The notes beneath the pieces were generated by a model. The model made no database searches. It had not been told where the DNA came from and saw nothing but the letters and a program-made list of their open reading frames with translations. A stretch of DNA of 55,049 nt from a virus. The DNA lies in the IMG/VR virus record IMGVR_UViG_3300022845_000006, positions 1 through 55,049 of that record; one strand, given 5' to 3'. The translations under genes were made by a program, and so were the position numbers. Below, in pieces: positions 10,342-48,987 of this stretch (the first letter of the stretch is position 1; each line of letters begins with the position of its first letter).

Positions 10342-10938
10342 CTACTCCCCCTCATCTTCTAATATACAAATTAGCAGCATAAAATTAATGTTCCATTGGT
10401 CTTTTTCAGCATAAGTATAAGAAGCATTAGAAGCATCAGAAGCATCATAAGCATAAGCAGCGGAAGCATAAGCAGCAGCATCATAAGCATAAGCATCAGA
10501 AGTATAGGCAGCATCAGAAGTAGCAGAAGCAGCATAAGAAGCATCAGAAACAGCAGCAGCAGCATAAGAAGAAGCAGAAACAGAAACAGCAACAACATAA
10601 TCACAAGCACGTCTTTTTATTAATAATTCATCTAACGATATTAAGCCTAGTAAGAAATCTTTATTAGCTTTTAAGCACTCATTAACCCTATTATCGTTAG
10701 GGTATTTTTCATTGTAAATATGGGCAACTGACTTCGCACATTCTAATGACCACCATTTTAAAATATTAACATTAACCATTTTTCTTATTAGCCATTCTTT
10801 ATTGTTATGAGGGATATGTTCTAACTGTAAAAACTCAACCATCGTCATATTAAAATCAGGATAATACTTGACTAAGTTTTCGTACACGCTTGTGTATGGG
10901 TCGAGTTTTTTAATATCTTCTAGTGTTATTTTGTTCAT
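10342..10938 (-). CDS. Hypervariable Ala/Ser/Tyr/Asp-tract protein, copy 1
   Basis: First-positioned (most downstream) of three tandem paralogs, 198 residues. A conserved helical domain (about 1-110) contains EWLIRKMVNVNILKWW, LECAKSVAHIYNEKYPND and KDFLLGLISLDELLIKRR; similar domains precede Ala-rich tracts in many phage proteins (Imm5-like group). Residues about 111-175 are almost only A, S, Y and D. The constant C-terminal cap is YAEKDQWNINFMLLICIL, with the terminal residues EDEGE diverged from the other copies. Ligand unknown; the variable surface suggests recognition of a changing partner. Confidence 0.75.
   Translation of the reverse strand: MNKITLEDIKKLDPYTSVYENLVKYYPDFNMTMVEFLQLEHIPHNNKEWLIRKMVNVNILKWWSLECAKSVAHIYNEKYPNDNRVNECLKANKDFLLGLISLDELLIKRRACDYVVAVSVSASSYAAAAVSDASYAASATSDAAYTSDAYAYDAAAYASAAYAYDASDASNASYTYAEKDQWNINFMLLICILEDEGE
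10409..10608 (-). repeat. KMT-codon hypervariable tract of copy 1
   Basis: About 200 bp of low-complexity DNA in which nearly every codon is G or T, then C or A, then T (GCT, TCT, TAT, GAT), encoding Ala, Ser, Tyr and Asp, with occasional ACT, GTT and AAT. Flanks on both sides are conserved among the three copies; this tract is not. Confidence 0.8.
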
Positions 10939-11529
10939 CTATTCCACCTCTTCTTTTAATATACGAATTAGTAACATAAAATTAATGTCCCATTGGTCTT
11001 TTTCAGCATAAGTATAAGAAGCATCAGAAACATCATAAGTAGCATAAGCAGCGGAAGCATAAGCAGAATAAGTAGTAGCATAAGCAATGGCATCAGAAGA
11101 ATAAGCATCAACAGAAGTAGCATAAGCAGCGGAAGCATAAGCAGAATAAGCAGCATCATAAGCAGAAGCATCAGAAGCACCAACAGCAGCAGTAGCCGCA
11201 CGTCTTTTTATTAATAATTCATCTAACGATATTAAGCCTAGTAAGAAATCTTTATTAGCTTTTAAGCACTCATTAACCCTATTATCGTTAGGATATTTTT
11301 TATTGTAAATATGAGCAACTGACTTCGCACATTCTAGTGCCCACCATTTTAAAATATTACCATCAACCATTCTCCTTATTAGCCACACTTTAGCTTTATG
11401 AGAGATGTGCTCTAACTCTAAAAACTCAACCATCGTCATATTAAAATCAGGATAATACTTAACTAAGTTTTCGTACCCACTTCTGCATGGGTCGAGTTTC
11501 TTAATATCTTTTAGTGTTATTTTGTTCAT
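10939..11529 (-). CDS. Hypervariable Ala/Ser/Tyr/Asp-tract protein, copy 2
   Basis: 196 residues, with the same layout as its neighbours. In the conserved domain it is the most divergent copy (ELEHISHKAKVWLIRRMVDG where the other two have QLEHIPHNNKEWLIRKMVNV), yet its first 20 residues (PCRSGYENL) and last residues (KEEVE) match copy 3. The variable tract contains the units DASAYDAAYSAYASAAYA and AYATTYSAYASAAYATYD, including an internal duplication of AYSAYASAAYAT-like sequence. It starts one base after copy 3 stops, with GAGGTGG as ribosome site. Confidence 0.75.
   Translation of the reverse strand: MNKITLKDIKKLDPCRSGYENLVKYYPDFNMTMVEFLELEHISHKAKVWLIRRMVDGNILKWWALECAKSVAHIYNKKYPNDNRVNECLKANKDFLLGLISLDELLIKRRAATAAVGASDASAYDAAYSAYASAAYATSVDAYSSDAIAYATTYSAYASAAYATYDVSDASYTYAEKDQWDINFMLLIRILKEEVE
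11006..11200 (-). repeat. KMT-codon hypervariable tract of copy 2
   Basis: About 195 bp with the same codon pattern as the copy 1 tract, but a different order of Ala, Ser, Tyr and Asp codons. It carries a visible internal repeat of roughly 30-40 bp. Confidence 0.8.
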
Positions 11530-12150
11530 CTATTCCACCTCTTCTTTTAATATACGAATTAGTAACATAAAATTAATGTCCCATTGCTCTTTTTTAGCAT
11601 AAGCAGAATCATCATCATCATAAGCATAAGCATTAGCAGCATAAGAAGCAGTAGCATAAGAAGCATAAGCATAAGCAGTATAGGCAGCAGTAGCATAAGA
11701 ATAAGCAGCATAAGCAGAAGCATCAGAAGCATAAGAAGCACCATCATCATCAGAAGCCGCAGCCGCAGCCGCAAAGGCAGCATCAACATCATAAGAAGTA
11801 GAAGAGGCAGCAGTAGCCGCACGTCTTTTTATTAATAATTCATCTAACGATATTAAGCCTAGTAAGAAATCTTTATTAGCTTTTAAGCACTCATTAACCC
11901 TATTATCGTTAGGATATTTTTTATTGTAAATATGAGCAACTGACTTCGCACATTCTAATGACCACCATTTTAAAATATTAACATTAACCATTTTTCTTAT
12001 TAGCCATTCTTTATTGTTATGAGGGATATGTTCTAACTGTAAAAACTCAACCATCGTCATATTAAAATCAGGATAATACTTGACTAAGTTTTCGTACCCA
12101 CTTCTGCATGGGTTGAGTTTCTTAATATCTTTTAGTGTTATTTTGTTCAT
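11530..12150 (-). CDS. Hypervariable Ala/Ser/Tyr/Asp-tract protein, copy 3
   Basis: 206 residues, the longest and most upstream copy. The middle of its conserved domain matches copy 1 (QLEHIPHNNKEWLIRKMVNV) while both ends match copy 2, a mosaic expected from recombination between tandem copies. The variable tract begins with Ala/Asp-rich DVDAAFAAAAAASDDDG and continues with AYAYASYATASYAANA and a DDDDS run before AKKEQWDINF. Its leader, GAGGTGGAATAG then ATG, is repeated before copies 2 and 1, showing that the duplicated unit is about 600 bp and includes the end of the preceding gene. Confidence 0.75.
   Translation of the reverse strand: MNKITLKDIKKLNPCRSGYENLVKYYPDFNMTMVEFLQLEHIPHNNKEWLIRKMVNVNILKWWSLECAKSVAHIYNKKYPNDNRVNECLKANKDFLLGLISLDELLIKRRAATAASSTSYDVDAAFAAAAAASDDDGASYASDASAYAAYSYATAAYTAYAYASYATASYAANAYAYDDDDSAYAKKEQWDINFMLLIRILKEEVE
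11596..11821 (-). repeat. KMT-codon hypervariable tract of copy 3
   Basis: About 225 bp of GCT/TCT/TAT/GAT-type codons with some GCC/GCG Ala codons at the 5' end of the tract. It differs in length and order from the tracts of copies 1 and 2. Confidence 0.8.
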
Positions 12151-12516
12151 CTATTCCACCTCTTCTTTTAATGCCATAATCGCTGCGTATGCGGCTCGGG
12201 CTGCGGCTTCTGATGCGCTCTTGTACCAACCATCTTCAAATACATGACAATCTATATTTACCAATGAAACCCAGTATCGCTCGTCTTTAACTGACATATC
12301 TATCTTTATTTCAATACATACCCCCAGCTTTTCAAAAACTGGGATTTGTGCGTCTAGTGAGGTGGTGTAAATACCGTTCTTTATTAACTCAATATCTTGT
12401 CCATAACCTTTGGCAAATTCCATCACTTGTGAAGGTATCCATGTGTGATTGGAATATATTCTGTAGCCCATAAACTCAGCTATCCCACGGTTAATTTCTT
12501 CGTTTGTTGGTTTCAT
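12151..12516 (-). CDS. Phage ABA-sandwich-like protein
   Basis: 121 residues. The pattern NEEINRGIAEFMGYR at the start, TSLDAQIPVFEKLG in the middle and the Ala-rich helix ASEAAARAAYAAIMAL at the end matches the phage ABA sandwich domain group found in many phage early operons. Function is not established. Its last residues (KEEVE) and the following intergenic bases are those repeated after copies 2 and 3 of the downstream tandem array, so the array probably arose by duplication that captured this gene's 3' end. Confidence 0.65.
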   Translation of the reverse strand: MKPTNEEINRGIAEFMGYRIYSNHTWIPSQVMEFAKGYGQDIELIKNGIYTTSLDAQIPVFEKLGVCIEIKIDMSVKDERYWVSLVNIDCHVFEDGWYKSASEAAARAAYAAIMALKEEVE

Positions 12517-12830: not shown

Positions 12831-13095
12831 ACTCGTCTCCCTCTTCCAACTCTAATCCTAATTTAGCTAACAACTCATCAAAGTCATTTAACCCTACATA
12901 TTCCTTATACTCCGATACCACATTATTATAATAATCCTGATCCGGCTTTTCAGGCACTAGCATCACTAAAAACTCCACATCTAAATACACTCCAGTTTCT
13001 AAGCTACTATGCTGTGACAACACTCTTCTTTTATGTACATCATTCTTATAAGCTGGCATTTTATAGGCTCCGTTTTTGTTTTTTAATTTATTCAT
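12823..13095 (-). CDS. Hypothetical protein, 90 aa
   Basis: A basic N-terminus (MNKLKNKNGAYKMPAYKN) and an acidic C-terminus (DELLAKLGLELEEGDEYE). It is preceded by three tandem copies of a 23-bp leader carrying AGAGATTAAC, the last directly before the ATG. No recognised family. Confidence 0.6.
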   Translation of the reverse strand: MNKLKNKNGAYKMPAYKNDVHKRRVLSQHSSLETGVYLDVEFLVMLVPEKPDQDYYNNVVSEYKEYVGLNDFDELLAKLGLELEEGDEYE

Positions 13096-13152
13096 GTTAA
13101 TCTCTACGTCTTCTAATTGTTAATCTCTACGTCTTCTAATTGTTAATCTCCC
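13096..13152 (-). repeat. Tandem 23-bp leader repeat with Shine-Dalgarno-like cores
   Basis: Two exact 23-bp units (13096-13118 and 13119-13141) and the start of a third. Read on the minus strand each unit ends in GAGATTAAC, the same ribosome-site context used before many genes here; only the last is followed by ATG. The copies probably arose by slippage; whether the upstream copies act as standby ribosome sites is untested. Confidence 0.75.
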
Positions 13153-16260: not shown

Positions 16261-16509
16261 TTACCACTCCTCAATTGTAAAGTTATAATATCCTAGCGAA
16301 TCCATTACTGCAATCGCCTCTTCTCTAGTATAATCCATTTCCCATAATAAGTCAACAAAAAACTCCTCCTGTATGTCGTCAATATTCCACGGTTTAGTAA
16401 GAGAATGATAATATTCCTTGAAATAATGCTCATCCCATTGAAGTTCTAGAATCTCCGCTGTCATGTTAATGTTTTGTTGGCTTGAATTGATTGTTCTAAT
16501 TGCATTCAT
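16261..16509 (-). CDS. Hypothetical acidic protein, 82 aa
   Basis: Starts at the ATG overlapping the beta-helix stop, with AAAGGA upstream. Contains WDEHYFKEYYHSLTKPWN and FFVDLLWEMDYTREEAIAVM. An alternative ATG at 16464 lacks a ribosome site. No family recognised. Confidence 0.6.
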   Translation of the reverse strand: MNAIRTINSSQQNINMTAEILELQWDEHYFKEYYHSLTKPWNIDDIQEEFFVDLLWEMDYTREEAIAVMDSLGYYNFTIEEW

Positions 16510-17180
16510 GATAATTTTCCTTTGTAGTAAATTGGTATTAATGTTTCTAATAAACTCATTACATTATTATAATGTTTTTCGTCTAATCCCATTTTTAATG
16601 CATCTTCTAACCCTACTTCTAACCATTCAGTGTATAACATTTGCACACATCCTATCCGAATATGATAATCTGTAAAGGTTATGTTGTATTGGAAGTTTGA
16701 CTGATTGTATATGCTTAAACATTCTATAGTTATTTCAGCTTCACCAGCCACCCAAGCTTCCCCAGCCACTCTAGCTTCACCAAACACCCTAGCTTCACCA
16801 AACACCCAAGCTTCACCAAACACCCTAGCTTTATCAAACACCCAAGCTTCATCAGCCACCCCAGCTTGACCAGACACTCTAGCTTCCCCAAACACTCTAG
16901 CTTCACCAAACACTCTAGCTTTATCAGCCACCCAAGCTTTACCAGCCACCCTAGCTTCACCAGACACTCTAGCTTCCCCAAACACTCTAGCTTCACCAAA
17001 CACTCTAGCTTTATCAGCCACCCAAGCTTCACCAACCTGCGATAAATTACTCTCCTTCTCTATAAAACCGCCCAAGTCTCCAGATTTAACGCTTCCAAAG
17101 TCCTTTAACGCTTTTATCCGGTATAAAGTTGTTCCAAAATGATCAATTGATTCAGTAGTTAGTTCGTATTTTTCATCCAT
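16506..17180 (-). CDS. Hexapeptide-repeat left-handed beta-helix protein
   Basis: 224 residues. A conserved cap (YELTTESIDHFGTTLYRIKA, then DLGGFIEKESNLSQVGEA) leads into 16 exact-length hexapeptides (residues 53-148) such as WVADKA, RVFGEA, RVSGEA and RVAGKA, the [LIV]-x-G-x-A-x pattern of left-handed beta-helices. A helical C-terminal domain (about 150-224) follows. Relatives with the same cap are common in phages and some host proteins of the YdcK type; activity is unproven. The first ten hexapeptides form two near-identical blocks of five (90 bp), so length probably changes by recombination. Confidence 0.8.
   Translation of the reverse strand: MDEKYELTTESIDHFGTTLYRIKALKDFGSVKSGDLGGFIEKESNLSQVGEAWVADKARVFGEARVFGEARVSGEARVAGKAWVADKARVFGEARVFGEARVSGQAGVADEAWVFDKARVFGEAWVFGEARVFGEARVAGEAWVAGEAEITIECLSIYNQSNFQYNITFTDYHIRIGCVQMLYTEWLEVGLEDALKMGLDEKHYNNVMSLLETLIPIYYKGKLS
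16737..17024 (-). repeat. Sixteen 18-bp units encoding hexapeptides
   Basis: 288 bp of 18-bp units. A five-unit block (WVADKA, RVFGEA, RVFGEA, RVSGEA, RVAGKA) is followed by a near-copy (WVADKA, RVFGEA, RVFGEA, RVSGQA, GVADEA), then six more units. Confidence 0.85.
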
Positions 17181-24782: not shown

Positions 24783-25265
24783 ATGTATTATAAAGGTGGT
24801 AGACAATACCGAGCACTAAGAAAAGGATTTACCGAGCATGGAAAACCCTTTTGGCGCAAGCAAACCTTTATAGACTTACAAAACAAATGGTACGAAAAAC
24901 TAAAATCTAAGGGCTTCAATGACCTCGAACATCTTGACAAAAAGTCAGGTGCCGGTCAAGATACGCCTTTTTTAGCCGGAAATGTGTCAAATTTAGTCCA
25001 ATCTTACGACCCTTTGGTAGAAAACTACTTCAGAAGCTGCCGAAATTACTTACATTATGCCAAATTCCCTTCAAAAGCTCATAAAGTCATGTGGGAATGC
25101 TTTTGCGAGGGCTATTCTTACCGCCAAATGATACCGATCATTAAGAAGAAAGCCAAGATAAGCCGCTCAGTCTTCTGGATAAGCGACCACCTCAACAAGC
25201 TTAAGCGTGCTATGGTAGAATTCAACCTCAATGATCCAGAAAGGTTTATAGATGAAGATGAATAG
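24783..25265 (+). CDS. Helix-turn-helix protein, first gene of the late arm
   Basis: 160 residues from the ATG at 24783 (GGGA 7 nt upstream); a GTG six bases earlier is possible. After GKPFWRKQTFIDLQNKWYEK and a helical middle, residues about 105-150 (WECFCEGYSYRQMIPIIKKK, then SRSVFWISDHLNKLKRAM) look like a helix-turn-helix of the sigma/terminase-small type. Proteins of this kind head the packaging clusters of several podoviruses. It may be a small terminase subunit or a late transcription activator. Confidence 0.6.
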   Translation: MYYKGGRQYRALRKGFTEHGKPFWRKQTFIDLQNKWYEKLKSKGFNDLEHLDKKSGAGQDTPFLAGNVSNLVQSYDPLVENYFRSCRNYLHYAKFPSKAHKVMWECFCEGYSYRQMIPIIKKKAKISRSVFWISDHLNKLKRAMVEFNLNDPERFIDEDE

Positions 25266-25701
25266 CCAAGCTTCCCAAGCTTCCCAAGCTTCCCAAGCTT
25301 CCCAAGCTTCCCAAGCTTCCCAAGCTTCCCAAGCTTCTCAAGCTTCCCAAGCTTCTCAAGCTTCTCAAGCTTCCCAAGCTTCCCAAGCTTCCCAAGCGCT
25401 TACAAAGCCTTTCAACCCCCCCACCCCAAAATCCGAAAACCCTAGGTTCCCTCTATATGAGTTAAAGAGTAATAATAAAAAACTATATTTACACACTGCT
25501 TATGCCCCCTCCCCCTGTTTAGGTTCCGTCTTAACGTCATTACAACCACTTAGGGTACCTACCCCCAAAAAAATTTTACAGCCCAAATATGTAAAAGCAG
25601 CTAACCCATTGATATCACATAAACACGGAGCTAACAACACCTACATAGTTAAGAAAGCAATAAGAAACCAAAAGCAACCCAAGGAAACGCAAAATGACTG
25701 A
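25252..25701 (+). CDS. SQA-repeat protein with basic tail
   Basis: 149 residues. Residues 5-49 are 15 perfect Ser-Gln-Ala triplets; the rest is Pro- and Lys-rich (KPFNPPTPKSENPRFPLYE, YIVKKAIRNQKQPKETQND). It overlaps the preceding gene by 14 bp with AAAGG upstream. Low complexity rules out fold assignment. The next gene also carries short ASQASQA and ASDASQA runs, so the repeat is a shared theme. Confidence 0.6.
   Translation: MKMNSQASQASQASQASQASQASQASQASQASQASQASQASQASQASQALTKPFNPPTPKSENPRFPLYELKSNNKKLYLHTAYAPSPCLGSVLTSLQPLRVPTPKKILQPKYVKAANPLISHKHGANNTYIVKKAIRNQKQPKETQND
25264..25398 (+). repeat. Fifteen tandem 9-bp units (SQA minisatellite)
   Basis: TCCCAAGCT or TCTCAAGCT repeated 15 times without interruption (first copy AGCCAAGCT, last ends in GCG). 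Every unit contains AAGCTT across its junction. Units of 9 keep the frame, so copy number can vary without inactivating the gene. Confidence 0.92.
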
Positions 25702-48225: not shown

Positions 48226-48987
48226 TTGGCAACGTACATATACCCACCAGTATCAATATCAGGCGGAGACGCAACGGCTGCGAATCAGGCTTTAATGATA
48301 ACTGAGCTTGAAGCAATCAACACCGACACTGACACTCTTGTCGCTGTCGATTACGCTACTGAAACTACCCTAGCTTTAGTAGCTACAGAAGCTACAGCAG
48401 CAGCAATATTAGTAGATACAACATCATTAGACGGTAAAGACTTTTCAACCGAAGTAACTTCAGCAGCAATATTAGCAGATACAACATCATTAGACGGTAA
48501 AGACTTTTCAACCGAAGTAACTTCAGCAGCTATATTAGTAGACACTTCAGTTATAGCTGGAGACACTACAAGCATCGATGGTAAAATCACAGCCTGTAAT
48601 ACAGGTGCCGTTGTAGTATCATCAAGTGCACTTCCAACTGGAGCAGCTACTAGTGCTAACCAAGCTACAATTATAGCTAATCAAGCCGCTATTACTCCAG
48701 TAGATTTTTTAGACTCAGGAGTCGTAGATTCTTCAAGTACTAACATTCCAGCAGCAGGATTAACAGTAGTAGCTTCACTAGCTGCTGACTGTACAGAACT
48801 AGAGGTAGTAGACGATATTGGTGAATACATGACACTTACAGACGGATCAAACGTTGTACTTGCTTACCTTGCATTGGGCGGCGGTAGAGTTAAAGTTTCT
48901 ATATCTTCAGGTACAGAATTAAAACTAGCATCAGTTAGTGGTTCAACTATTAGTGCAGGAAAAATTGCAATAAACATTCTCGGTTAA
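48226..48987 (+). CDS. Repeat-containing tail/fibre protein, TTG start
   Basis: 253 residues. TTG at 48226 with AGGAG 8 nt upstream in the HNH gene end; no ATG is available nearby. N-terminus YIYPPVSISGGDATAANQAL; residues 59-100 are two 21-residue repeats (AAILVDTTSLDGKDFSTEVT plus S) and a third partial. The C-terminal half is a beta domain (GEYMTLTDGSNVVLAYLALG). Proteins of this type lie in marine phage tail clusters. Confidence 0.68.
   Translation: MATYIYPPVSISGGDATAANQALMITELEAINTDTDTLVAVDYATETTLALVATEATAAAILVDTTSLDGKDFSTEVTSAAILADTTSLDGKDFSTEVTSAAILVDTSVIAGDTTSIDGKITACNTGAVVVSSSALPTGAATSANQATIIANQAAITPVDFLDSGVVDSSSTNIPAAGLTVVASLAADCTELEVVDDIGEYMTLTDGSNVVLAYLALGGGRVKVSISSGTELKLASVSGSTISAGKIAINILG
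48400..48525 (+). repeat. Two 63-bp tandem repeats (plus partial third)
   Basis: 48400-48462 and 48463-48525 are nearly identical, followed by about 18 bp of a third. In-frame, so they alter the coiled or beta stalk length. Confidence 0.85.

Follow-up and report, generated by a model that had tools for sequence, protein, structure and literature searches.

The sequence studied is a 55,049-base virus record (IMGVR_UViG_3300022845_000006), which was analysed over its whole length and is referred to here as the window. Its minus-strand gene block encodes DNA polymerase A, a PD-(D/E)XK nuclease and ribonucleotide reductase, and its plus-strand gene block includes a large terminase; among ten large ORFs examined in the window there were replication genes and a terminase, and no toxin. 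Three minus-strand ORFs, C (12150-11530), B (11529-10939) and A (10938-10342), adjoin one another stop-to-start and share one plan, namely a conserved N-terminal segment of 110 residues, a variable tract rich in KMT codons (G or T, A or C, then T, encoding Ala, Asp, Ser and Tyr), and a conserved C-terminal segment of ~22 residues. The features of the locus are listed below.

10342-10938, minus strand: gene A, 198 amino acids, Imm5_like N-terminal flank, variable tract and C-terminal helix; PF21805, 35.7 bits
10342-10410, minus strand: conserved C-terminal part of A
10411-10608, minus strand: tract A, 66 codons, 82% KMT, 97% NNT
10609-10938, minus strand: conserved N-terminal flank of A, 110 codons; alone matches Imm5_like positions 11-55 with 31.9 bits
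10939-11529, minus strand: gene B, 196 amino acids, paralogue of A; PF21805, 40.5 bits
10939-11007, minus strand: conserved C-terminal part of B
10944-10953, minus strand: GAAGAGGTGG, ribosome-binding-site-like, for gene A, within the last codons of gene B (read from the sequence)
11008-11199, minus strand: tract B, 64 codons, 77% KMT, 94% NNT
11200-11529, minus strand: conserved N-terminal flank of B; alone matches Imm5_like with 34.7 bits
11530-12150, minus strand: gene C, 206 amino acids, paralogue of A and B; PF21805, 33.0 bits; flanks modelled with confidence, tract with low confidence
11530-11598, minus strand: conserved C-terminal helix of C, residues 181-205 (block pLDDT 78-93)
11535-11544, minus strand: GAAGAGGTGG, ribosome-binding-site-like, for gene B, within gene C (read from the sequence)
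11599-11820, minus strand: tract C, 74 codons, 78% KMT, 91% NNT
11821-12150, minus strand: conserved N-terminal flank of C, predicted helices (block pLDDT 85-96)
12156-12165, minus strand: GAAGAGGTGG, ribosome-binding-site-like, for gene C, within the upstream gene (12151-12516) (read from the sequence)

Since GAAGAGGTGG precedes the ATG inside the end of the preceding gene, and the stop codon abuts the ATG, genes A, B and C look translationally coupled. Repeats are also found elsewhere in the window. An ORF at 25252-25701 (plus strand) begins with ~15 near-perfect 9-bp repeats, (QAS)n, with 96% matches, a clean in-frame repeat tract near the minus-to-plus gene-strand switch. At 16506-17180 (minus strand) a 224-amino acid ORF contains 16.6 copies of 18-bp repeats encoding ARVFGEARVSGEARVAG-type hexapeptides, and a 63-bp tandem repeat (2.3 copies, 96%) lies in the plus-strand gene block at 48398-48542. 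Finally, a 23-bp perfect repeat (2.4 copies), possibly regulatory, is located between minus-block ORFs at 13095-13150.

KMT codons account for 54/66, 49/64 and 58/74 of the codons of tracts A, B and C, i.e., 161/204 (79%) in total, and for 8, 11 and 8% of those of the respective flanks. A preliminary description of this DNA had proposed three tandem proteins with hypervariable KMT-rich tracts within conserved flanks, and the enrichment (77-82% vs 8-11%) bears this out. Given the amino acids of the tracts and the codon usage of this phage, only 21.8, 21.0 and 26.1 KMT codons would be expected in A, B and C. Likewise, T is the third base of 191/204 tract codons (94%), where 87 are expected. The Ala codons of the tracts are GCT in 70/80 cases and GCA in none (0/80), and GCA is the commonest Ala codon of the other genes of this phage (51%). 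Ordinary codon bias as the source of the KMT fraction, an objection that the preliminary description had itself raised, is thus excluded by the codon-usage expectation and by the absence of GCA. Wherever 8 or more KMT codons follow one another in the 55-kb record, they fall within tracts A-C, on the minus strand, and a control in which the record was read backwards gave no such run. The claim that the tracts consist almost only of KMT codons was right about the enrichment and overstated its purity: ACT and GTT are the next-commonest codons, and "almost only NNT" (94%) describes the tracts better than "almost only KMT" (79%). Compared with 131 tracts surveyed in other phages (see below), tracts A-C are low in Ala (38-42%, below all 131) and high in Ser (15-20%, above 97% of them). 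The high Ser share is a peculiarity of this phage and not part of the general recipe.

To describe how the tracts change relative to their flanks, paralogues and relatives were compared. Among A, B and C the N-terminal flanks are 92-97% identical at the DNA level, whereas tract identity, gaps included, is 64-73%. In a codon-shuffle test two of the three paralogue tract pairs aligned only slightly above shuffled sequences (z 2.0-2.5), and the A-B pair gave 5.1. In the aligned tracts of the window group we counted 19, 16 and 4 substitutions at codon positions 1, 2 and 3, vs 24, 16 and 26 in the flanks, these counts being small and non-independent. The first part of tract C (SSTSYDVDAA..AAAAAASDDD) is also found in the L004 tract, and a relative on another contig, with a flank of 92% protein identity, has a tract of which half can be aligned to that of C and the other half is rearranged. 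In phages 9NA, Solent and Sergei the N-terminal flank is identical at the DNA level (276/276 nt), and the tracts have 98, 79 and 45 codons; the tracts of Sasha 536P12 and PDP46 (flank 95%) have 90 and 66 codons; those of MetMV and its Methanoperedens counterpart differ by 21 codons; and two IMG/VR copies (L408 and L409) with flanks 99.8% identical over 471 nt carry different tracts. Hence in-frame length change between otherwise near-identical relatives was observed for 9NA/Solent/Sergei, for L408/L409 and for MetMV/Methanoperedens.

Across 77 close pairs with a flank identity of at least 93%, the tract differs in 50. In the other 27/77 pairs the tracts are identical, so that some phages keep the same tract from one sample to another; 26 of these 27 have flanks that are 99.6-100% identical, and many of the 27 are probably re-sampled genomes. 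We conclude that tract length and order alter in frame far faster than the flanks. The gain and loss of codon modules in frame among relatives agrees with the rapid diversification within conserved flanks that had been suggested, and very probably the tracts change as trinucleotide modules are duplicated, deleted or recombined in frame.

Two other origins of this variability were considered. In one family, contig ends within 600 nt are more frequent on the side of the tract than on the opposite side (19 vs 3, p = 0.0005), and the bias in a second family is not significant (14 vs 8). This excess would fit repeats or population variation breaking the assembly, and it is what could be said for the tracts being assembly artefacts of low-complexity repeats. 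Against this, isolate genomes (9NA, Solent, Sergei, Cr30 and Vibrio phages) carry the same tracts with open frames, the three copies in the window differ in their flanks, and an orthologue of C is present on an independent contig, so that an artefact can be given almost no credence. A targeted mutator altering codon positions 1 and 2, e.g., a diversity-generating retroelement, would leave position 3 fixed while positions 1 and 2 vary, as in the variable repeats that such elements make from AAY codons. However, no PF00078 reverse transcriptase was found in the record, which may be incomplete, by a search that does find reverse transcriptases in control genomes; Ala dominates the tracts, which is not the mark of an A-rich template; and differences between close relatives are mostly in-frame gains and losses. 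A targeted mutator is disfavoured, and we consider it very improbable.

DNA similarity led first to tracts in the Salmonella phages 9NA and Solent, in Caulobacter phage Cr30 and in Vibrio phages. In these tracts the Ala codons are nearly all GCT (69/69 in 9NA), whereas the third bases are mixed in the flanks of the same genes. In L015 the third base is C in each of the 20 tract codons available. IMG/VR was scanned for runs of 20 KMT codons, and likewise of 20 KMC codons, with at least 120 matches each. Among the matches listed, 148/158 Ala-type ORFs with a usable N-terminus belong to three N-terminal domain families (80, 38 and 30), one of them immunity-like, and each family has T and C versions of the tract. 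The earlier suggestion that KMT itself is special is not supported, since in other phages the same residues are encoded by KMC codons. The KMT scans also match homopolymers (poly-Ser, poly-Tyr and poly-Asp, as in L045, L060, L030, L070 and L032), which are unrelated to the Ala-type tracts.

Since such scans select for the pattern itself, two surveys chose relatives solely by their N-terminal domain, covering the best 80 of 333 and the best 80 of 447 relatives; the residue and third-base counts refer to the 131 tracts obtained from these. In the best 80 of each survey the tracts contain 69% Ala, 12 and 10% Tyr, and 7 and 9% Asp, and Lys, Leu, Gln and Met are nearly absent. The share of the top third base among Ala codons has a median of 0.96 and 1.00 in the tracts. 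For the N-terminal parts of these genes the values are 0.50 and 0.44, and for neighbouring ORFs 0.42. Loci with T tracts in the GCAVGC family have a mean GC of 0.44 and those with C tracts 0.57; in the other surveyed family 65/66 tracts are T-dominated. Third-base uniformity reaches 0.9 in 93 of the 131 tracts and is below 0.6 in 24 (~18%). The residue types within a single tract are few; most commonly, 3 or 4 of them account for 95% of it. The general recipe is thus Ala, Tyr and Asp with, in most cases, one third base (T or C) throughout, and hundreds of phage genes follow it.

Some tracts have other local alphabets, such as Ala/Phe (L289), Ala/Thr (L355), Ala/His (L356) and Ala/Trp/Arg/Gly (L359). 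In Vibrio phage K45 (L027, 1998-3125) a domain related to the N-terminal one of 9NA is followed by an Ala-rich tract and then by a long further region, with a transposase gene nearby. Parts of an Ala/Asp/Tyr tract of Vibrio phage 2.044.O (L025:2324-2397) are publicly annotated as CRISPR spacers, which is probably a false call of a repeat finder. No description of such tracts was found in the openly accessible literature, and none of a hypervariable, third-base-uniform tract for the Imm5_like family; the scaffold family is already known, and it is the tract phenomenon and the set-wide pattern that we did not find described there.

We then considered which residues are kept. From GCT, one step at codon position 1 or 2 leads to Asp, Ser, Thr, Val, Gly or Pro, and Tyr is two steps away, as it is from GCC. 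The 131 surveyed tracts contain 858 Tyr, 658 Asp, 198 Ser, 151 Val, 127 Thr, 90 Gly and 13 Pro, showing that Tyr and Asp are kept above the level of one-step mutation from Ala, and that Pro is avoided. Aromatic residues (Tyr, Phe, Trp or His) are present in 129/131 tracts, and Lys and Arg are absent from 107/131. Aromatic and acidic residues lie 3 apart in 29% of cases vs 13% expected, and spacings of 2, 4 and 5 are also common. The avoidance of Pro together with the excess of Ala suggests a helix. From the residue counts and the loose spacing it follows that the composition is selected and the exact order is not conserved.

These counts bear on two further explanations. The main rival to a functional contact surface is that the tract is a tolerated spacer, i.e., that the scaffold does the work and an Ala-rich helical linker drifts, with frequent and harmless in-frame trinucleotide expansion and contraction. 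The wide range of tract lengths within a family (about 20 to 151 codons), the loose aromatic/acidic spacing, with 2, 3, 4 and 5 all common, and the low model confidence in the tract speak for it. A neutral spacer, however, should give Ser, Thr, Val, Gly and Pro first, whereas the commonest non-Ala residue is Tyr, two steps from GCT, and Asp is three times as frequent as Ser; the enrichment of the 3-residue spacing and the near-universal presence of at least one aromatic residue are also at odds with neutrality. We regard a tolerated spacer as quite possible, nearly as likely as a binder. The uniform third base is a DNA-level property, and phages are known to encode repeat RNAs whose positions vary (VIPR), so the repeats might instead matter as a substrate for recombination or as a repeat RNA, the protein being secondary. 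Such an element is improbable, given that the tracts lie in frame between conserved protein segments, that the residue choice is selected, with T and C versions encoding the same residues, and that the period is 3 and not the 5 bases of the YNNGG repeats of VIPR. A VIPR-like guide RNA in particular was rejected, as VIPR repeats are intergenic, and the tracts lie inside ORFs with a period of 3.

The proteins encoded by A, B and C all score above the 25-bit cut-off of Pfam PF21805 (Imm5_like, putative immunity), with 33.0-40.5 bits, and are the only matches of this type in the window. The match sits in the N-terminal flank: by themselves, residues 1-110 of A and B matched profile positions 11-55 (of 129); the tracts of A and B alone, or the tract plus C-terminus, matched no Pfam family. 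The Imm5_like match is thus not due to Ala-rich composition. In A and B, the tract together with the C-terminus could not be recognised as the second half of the domain (positions 56-129), and, as far as profile matches can tell, the tract appears to stand in the place of that half. This anatomy and the family assignment of A, B and C are given with near certainty. D82 and R84 are invariant among four relatives, and R84 is conserved at 90% or more in 30 relatives. Imm5 proteins have a conserved Asp and Arg, are mostly alpha-helical and are listed against DYW-type deaminases. More distant homologues occur in the archaeal virus MetMV, a Methanoperedens MAG, IMG/VR contigs and other phages. One 70.9-kb contig (IMGVR_UViG_3300032236_001259) carries four Imm5-like tract-gene paralogues (L274, L280, L291 and L293), dispersed rather than tandem, some of whose tracts contain Trp, His and Asn. 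A common origin of the Imm5-like and GCAVGC N-terminal domains was considered and set aside, as it had no profile support. An NCBIfam search, and a PADLOC search for defence-system proteins, gave no match. No recurrent neighbour gene, toxin or other, was found in 159 loci of two domain families, so that the target, if there is one, is probably encoded elsewhere; tandem immunity genes that lack a toxin gene are known.

The protein of gene C was modelled by AlphaFold2 with 30 sequences. The helical N-terminal part (pLDDT 85-96 to about residue 110) and the C-terminal helix were predicted with confidence, and residues 117-178 had a pLDDT below 50. The predicted structure of a GCAVGC family representative follows the same plan. 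In these models, the tract looks inserted between two of the helices that make up a conserved scaffold. A Foldseek search of solved PDB structures by fold returned nothing significant, and a PDB sequence search nothing relevant; a phage protein named Imm-5-like was among the best fold matches. The closest superposition listed in the PDB was chain B of 7jtu (rmsd 4.2 over 97 columns, E 2.4, probability 0.16), which is not significant. 7JTU is the complex of SsdA, a DYW-like deaminase toxin, with its immunity protein SsdAI, and chain B is probably SsdAI. We take this resemblance as a lead, not as evidence of homology.

We propose that A, B and C are tandem copies in which an Imm5_like helical domain forms the N-terminal half, a hypervariable Ala/Tyr/Asp(/Ser) tract takes the place of the second half, and a conserved C-terminal helix closes the protein. 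Trinucleotide modules are probably duplicated, deleted or recombined in frame faster than point mutations accumulate, which would account for the uniform third base, and selection at the protein level would maintain a stretch that is rich in Ala, probably helical, and interspersed with aromatic and acidic residues. This combination of module turnover and protein-level selection is well supported by the comparisons described above. With T or C as the only third base, any mixture of GCY, GAY, TCY and TAY codons is free of stops, which may be an advantage of a uniform pyrimidine. The tract could then be a variable contact surface through which the immunity-like scaffold binds and blocks a host protein or one belonging to a competing element, and tandem copies with different tracts might provide a small repertoire. 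A specificity-setting variable binder on an orphan immunity-like protein is our best guess, and a tentative one: the tract is not confidently folded, 24/131 tracts lack third-base uniformity, and 27/77 close pairs have identical tracts. A wider reading, in which helical immunity-like scaffolds would display tracts of Ala, Tyr and Asp (Ser), made of KMT or KMC modules reshuffled in frame, as a widespread diversification without reverse transcriptase, a minimal code yielding new binders of host or competitor proteins, we consider rather unlikely.

Hundreds of phages carry, in genes labelled "hypothetical" or "Imm-5-like", tracts that differ despite identical flanks, a pattern that a molecular arms race would be expected to leave, and the role of the tracts can be tested in isolate phages of Salmonella, E. 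coli and Vibrio. If the tracts set binding specificity, they would be a simple way to diversify proteins independently of reverse transcriptase; if they are tolerated spacers, they are a striking example of trinucleotides turning over while selection maintains frame and composition. The case in the window is an unusual, Ser-rich instance within a large set, and the interest lies in the pattern across that set.

Several known systems resemble A-C in part. Synthetic antibody libraries have been built with KMT codons, i.e., with the same four residues, whereas the natural tracts are Ala-dominated and mostly Ser-poor. Diversity-generating retroelements likewise vary positions 1 and 2 and fix position 3, but no reverse transcriptase was found in the record, and the tracts change mainly by in-frame gain and loss of modules. 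SsdAI, whose own protrusion contacts and blocks its toxin, is all-helical, as are the modelled proteins of the A-C type, but it shows no PDB sequence match and no significant fold match to them. Imm5_like PF21805 and Imm5 PF14423 share with A-C the N-flank profile match and the conserved Asp and Arg (D82, R84), and differ in that the second half of the profile is unrecognisable in the tract alone and that no toxin neighbour was found. Further counterparts are the hypothetical phage proteins 9NA gp10, Solent gp17, Sergei gp17 and the Vibrio and Shewanella phage relatives, which combine, as A-C do, a conserved N-terminal domain, a hypervariable NNT tract of Ala, Tyr and Asp, and a short conserved C-terminus. 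Unlike A-C, the N-terminal domain of 9NA alone has no Pfam match, and the enterobacterial phage tracts are 62-70% Ala and nearly free of Ser; in the Sergei record the annotators had marked a tandem repeat region.
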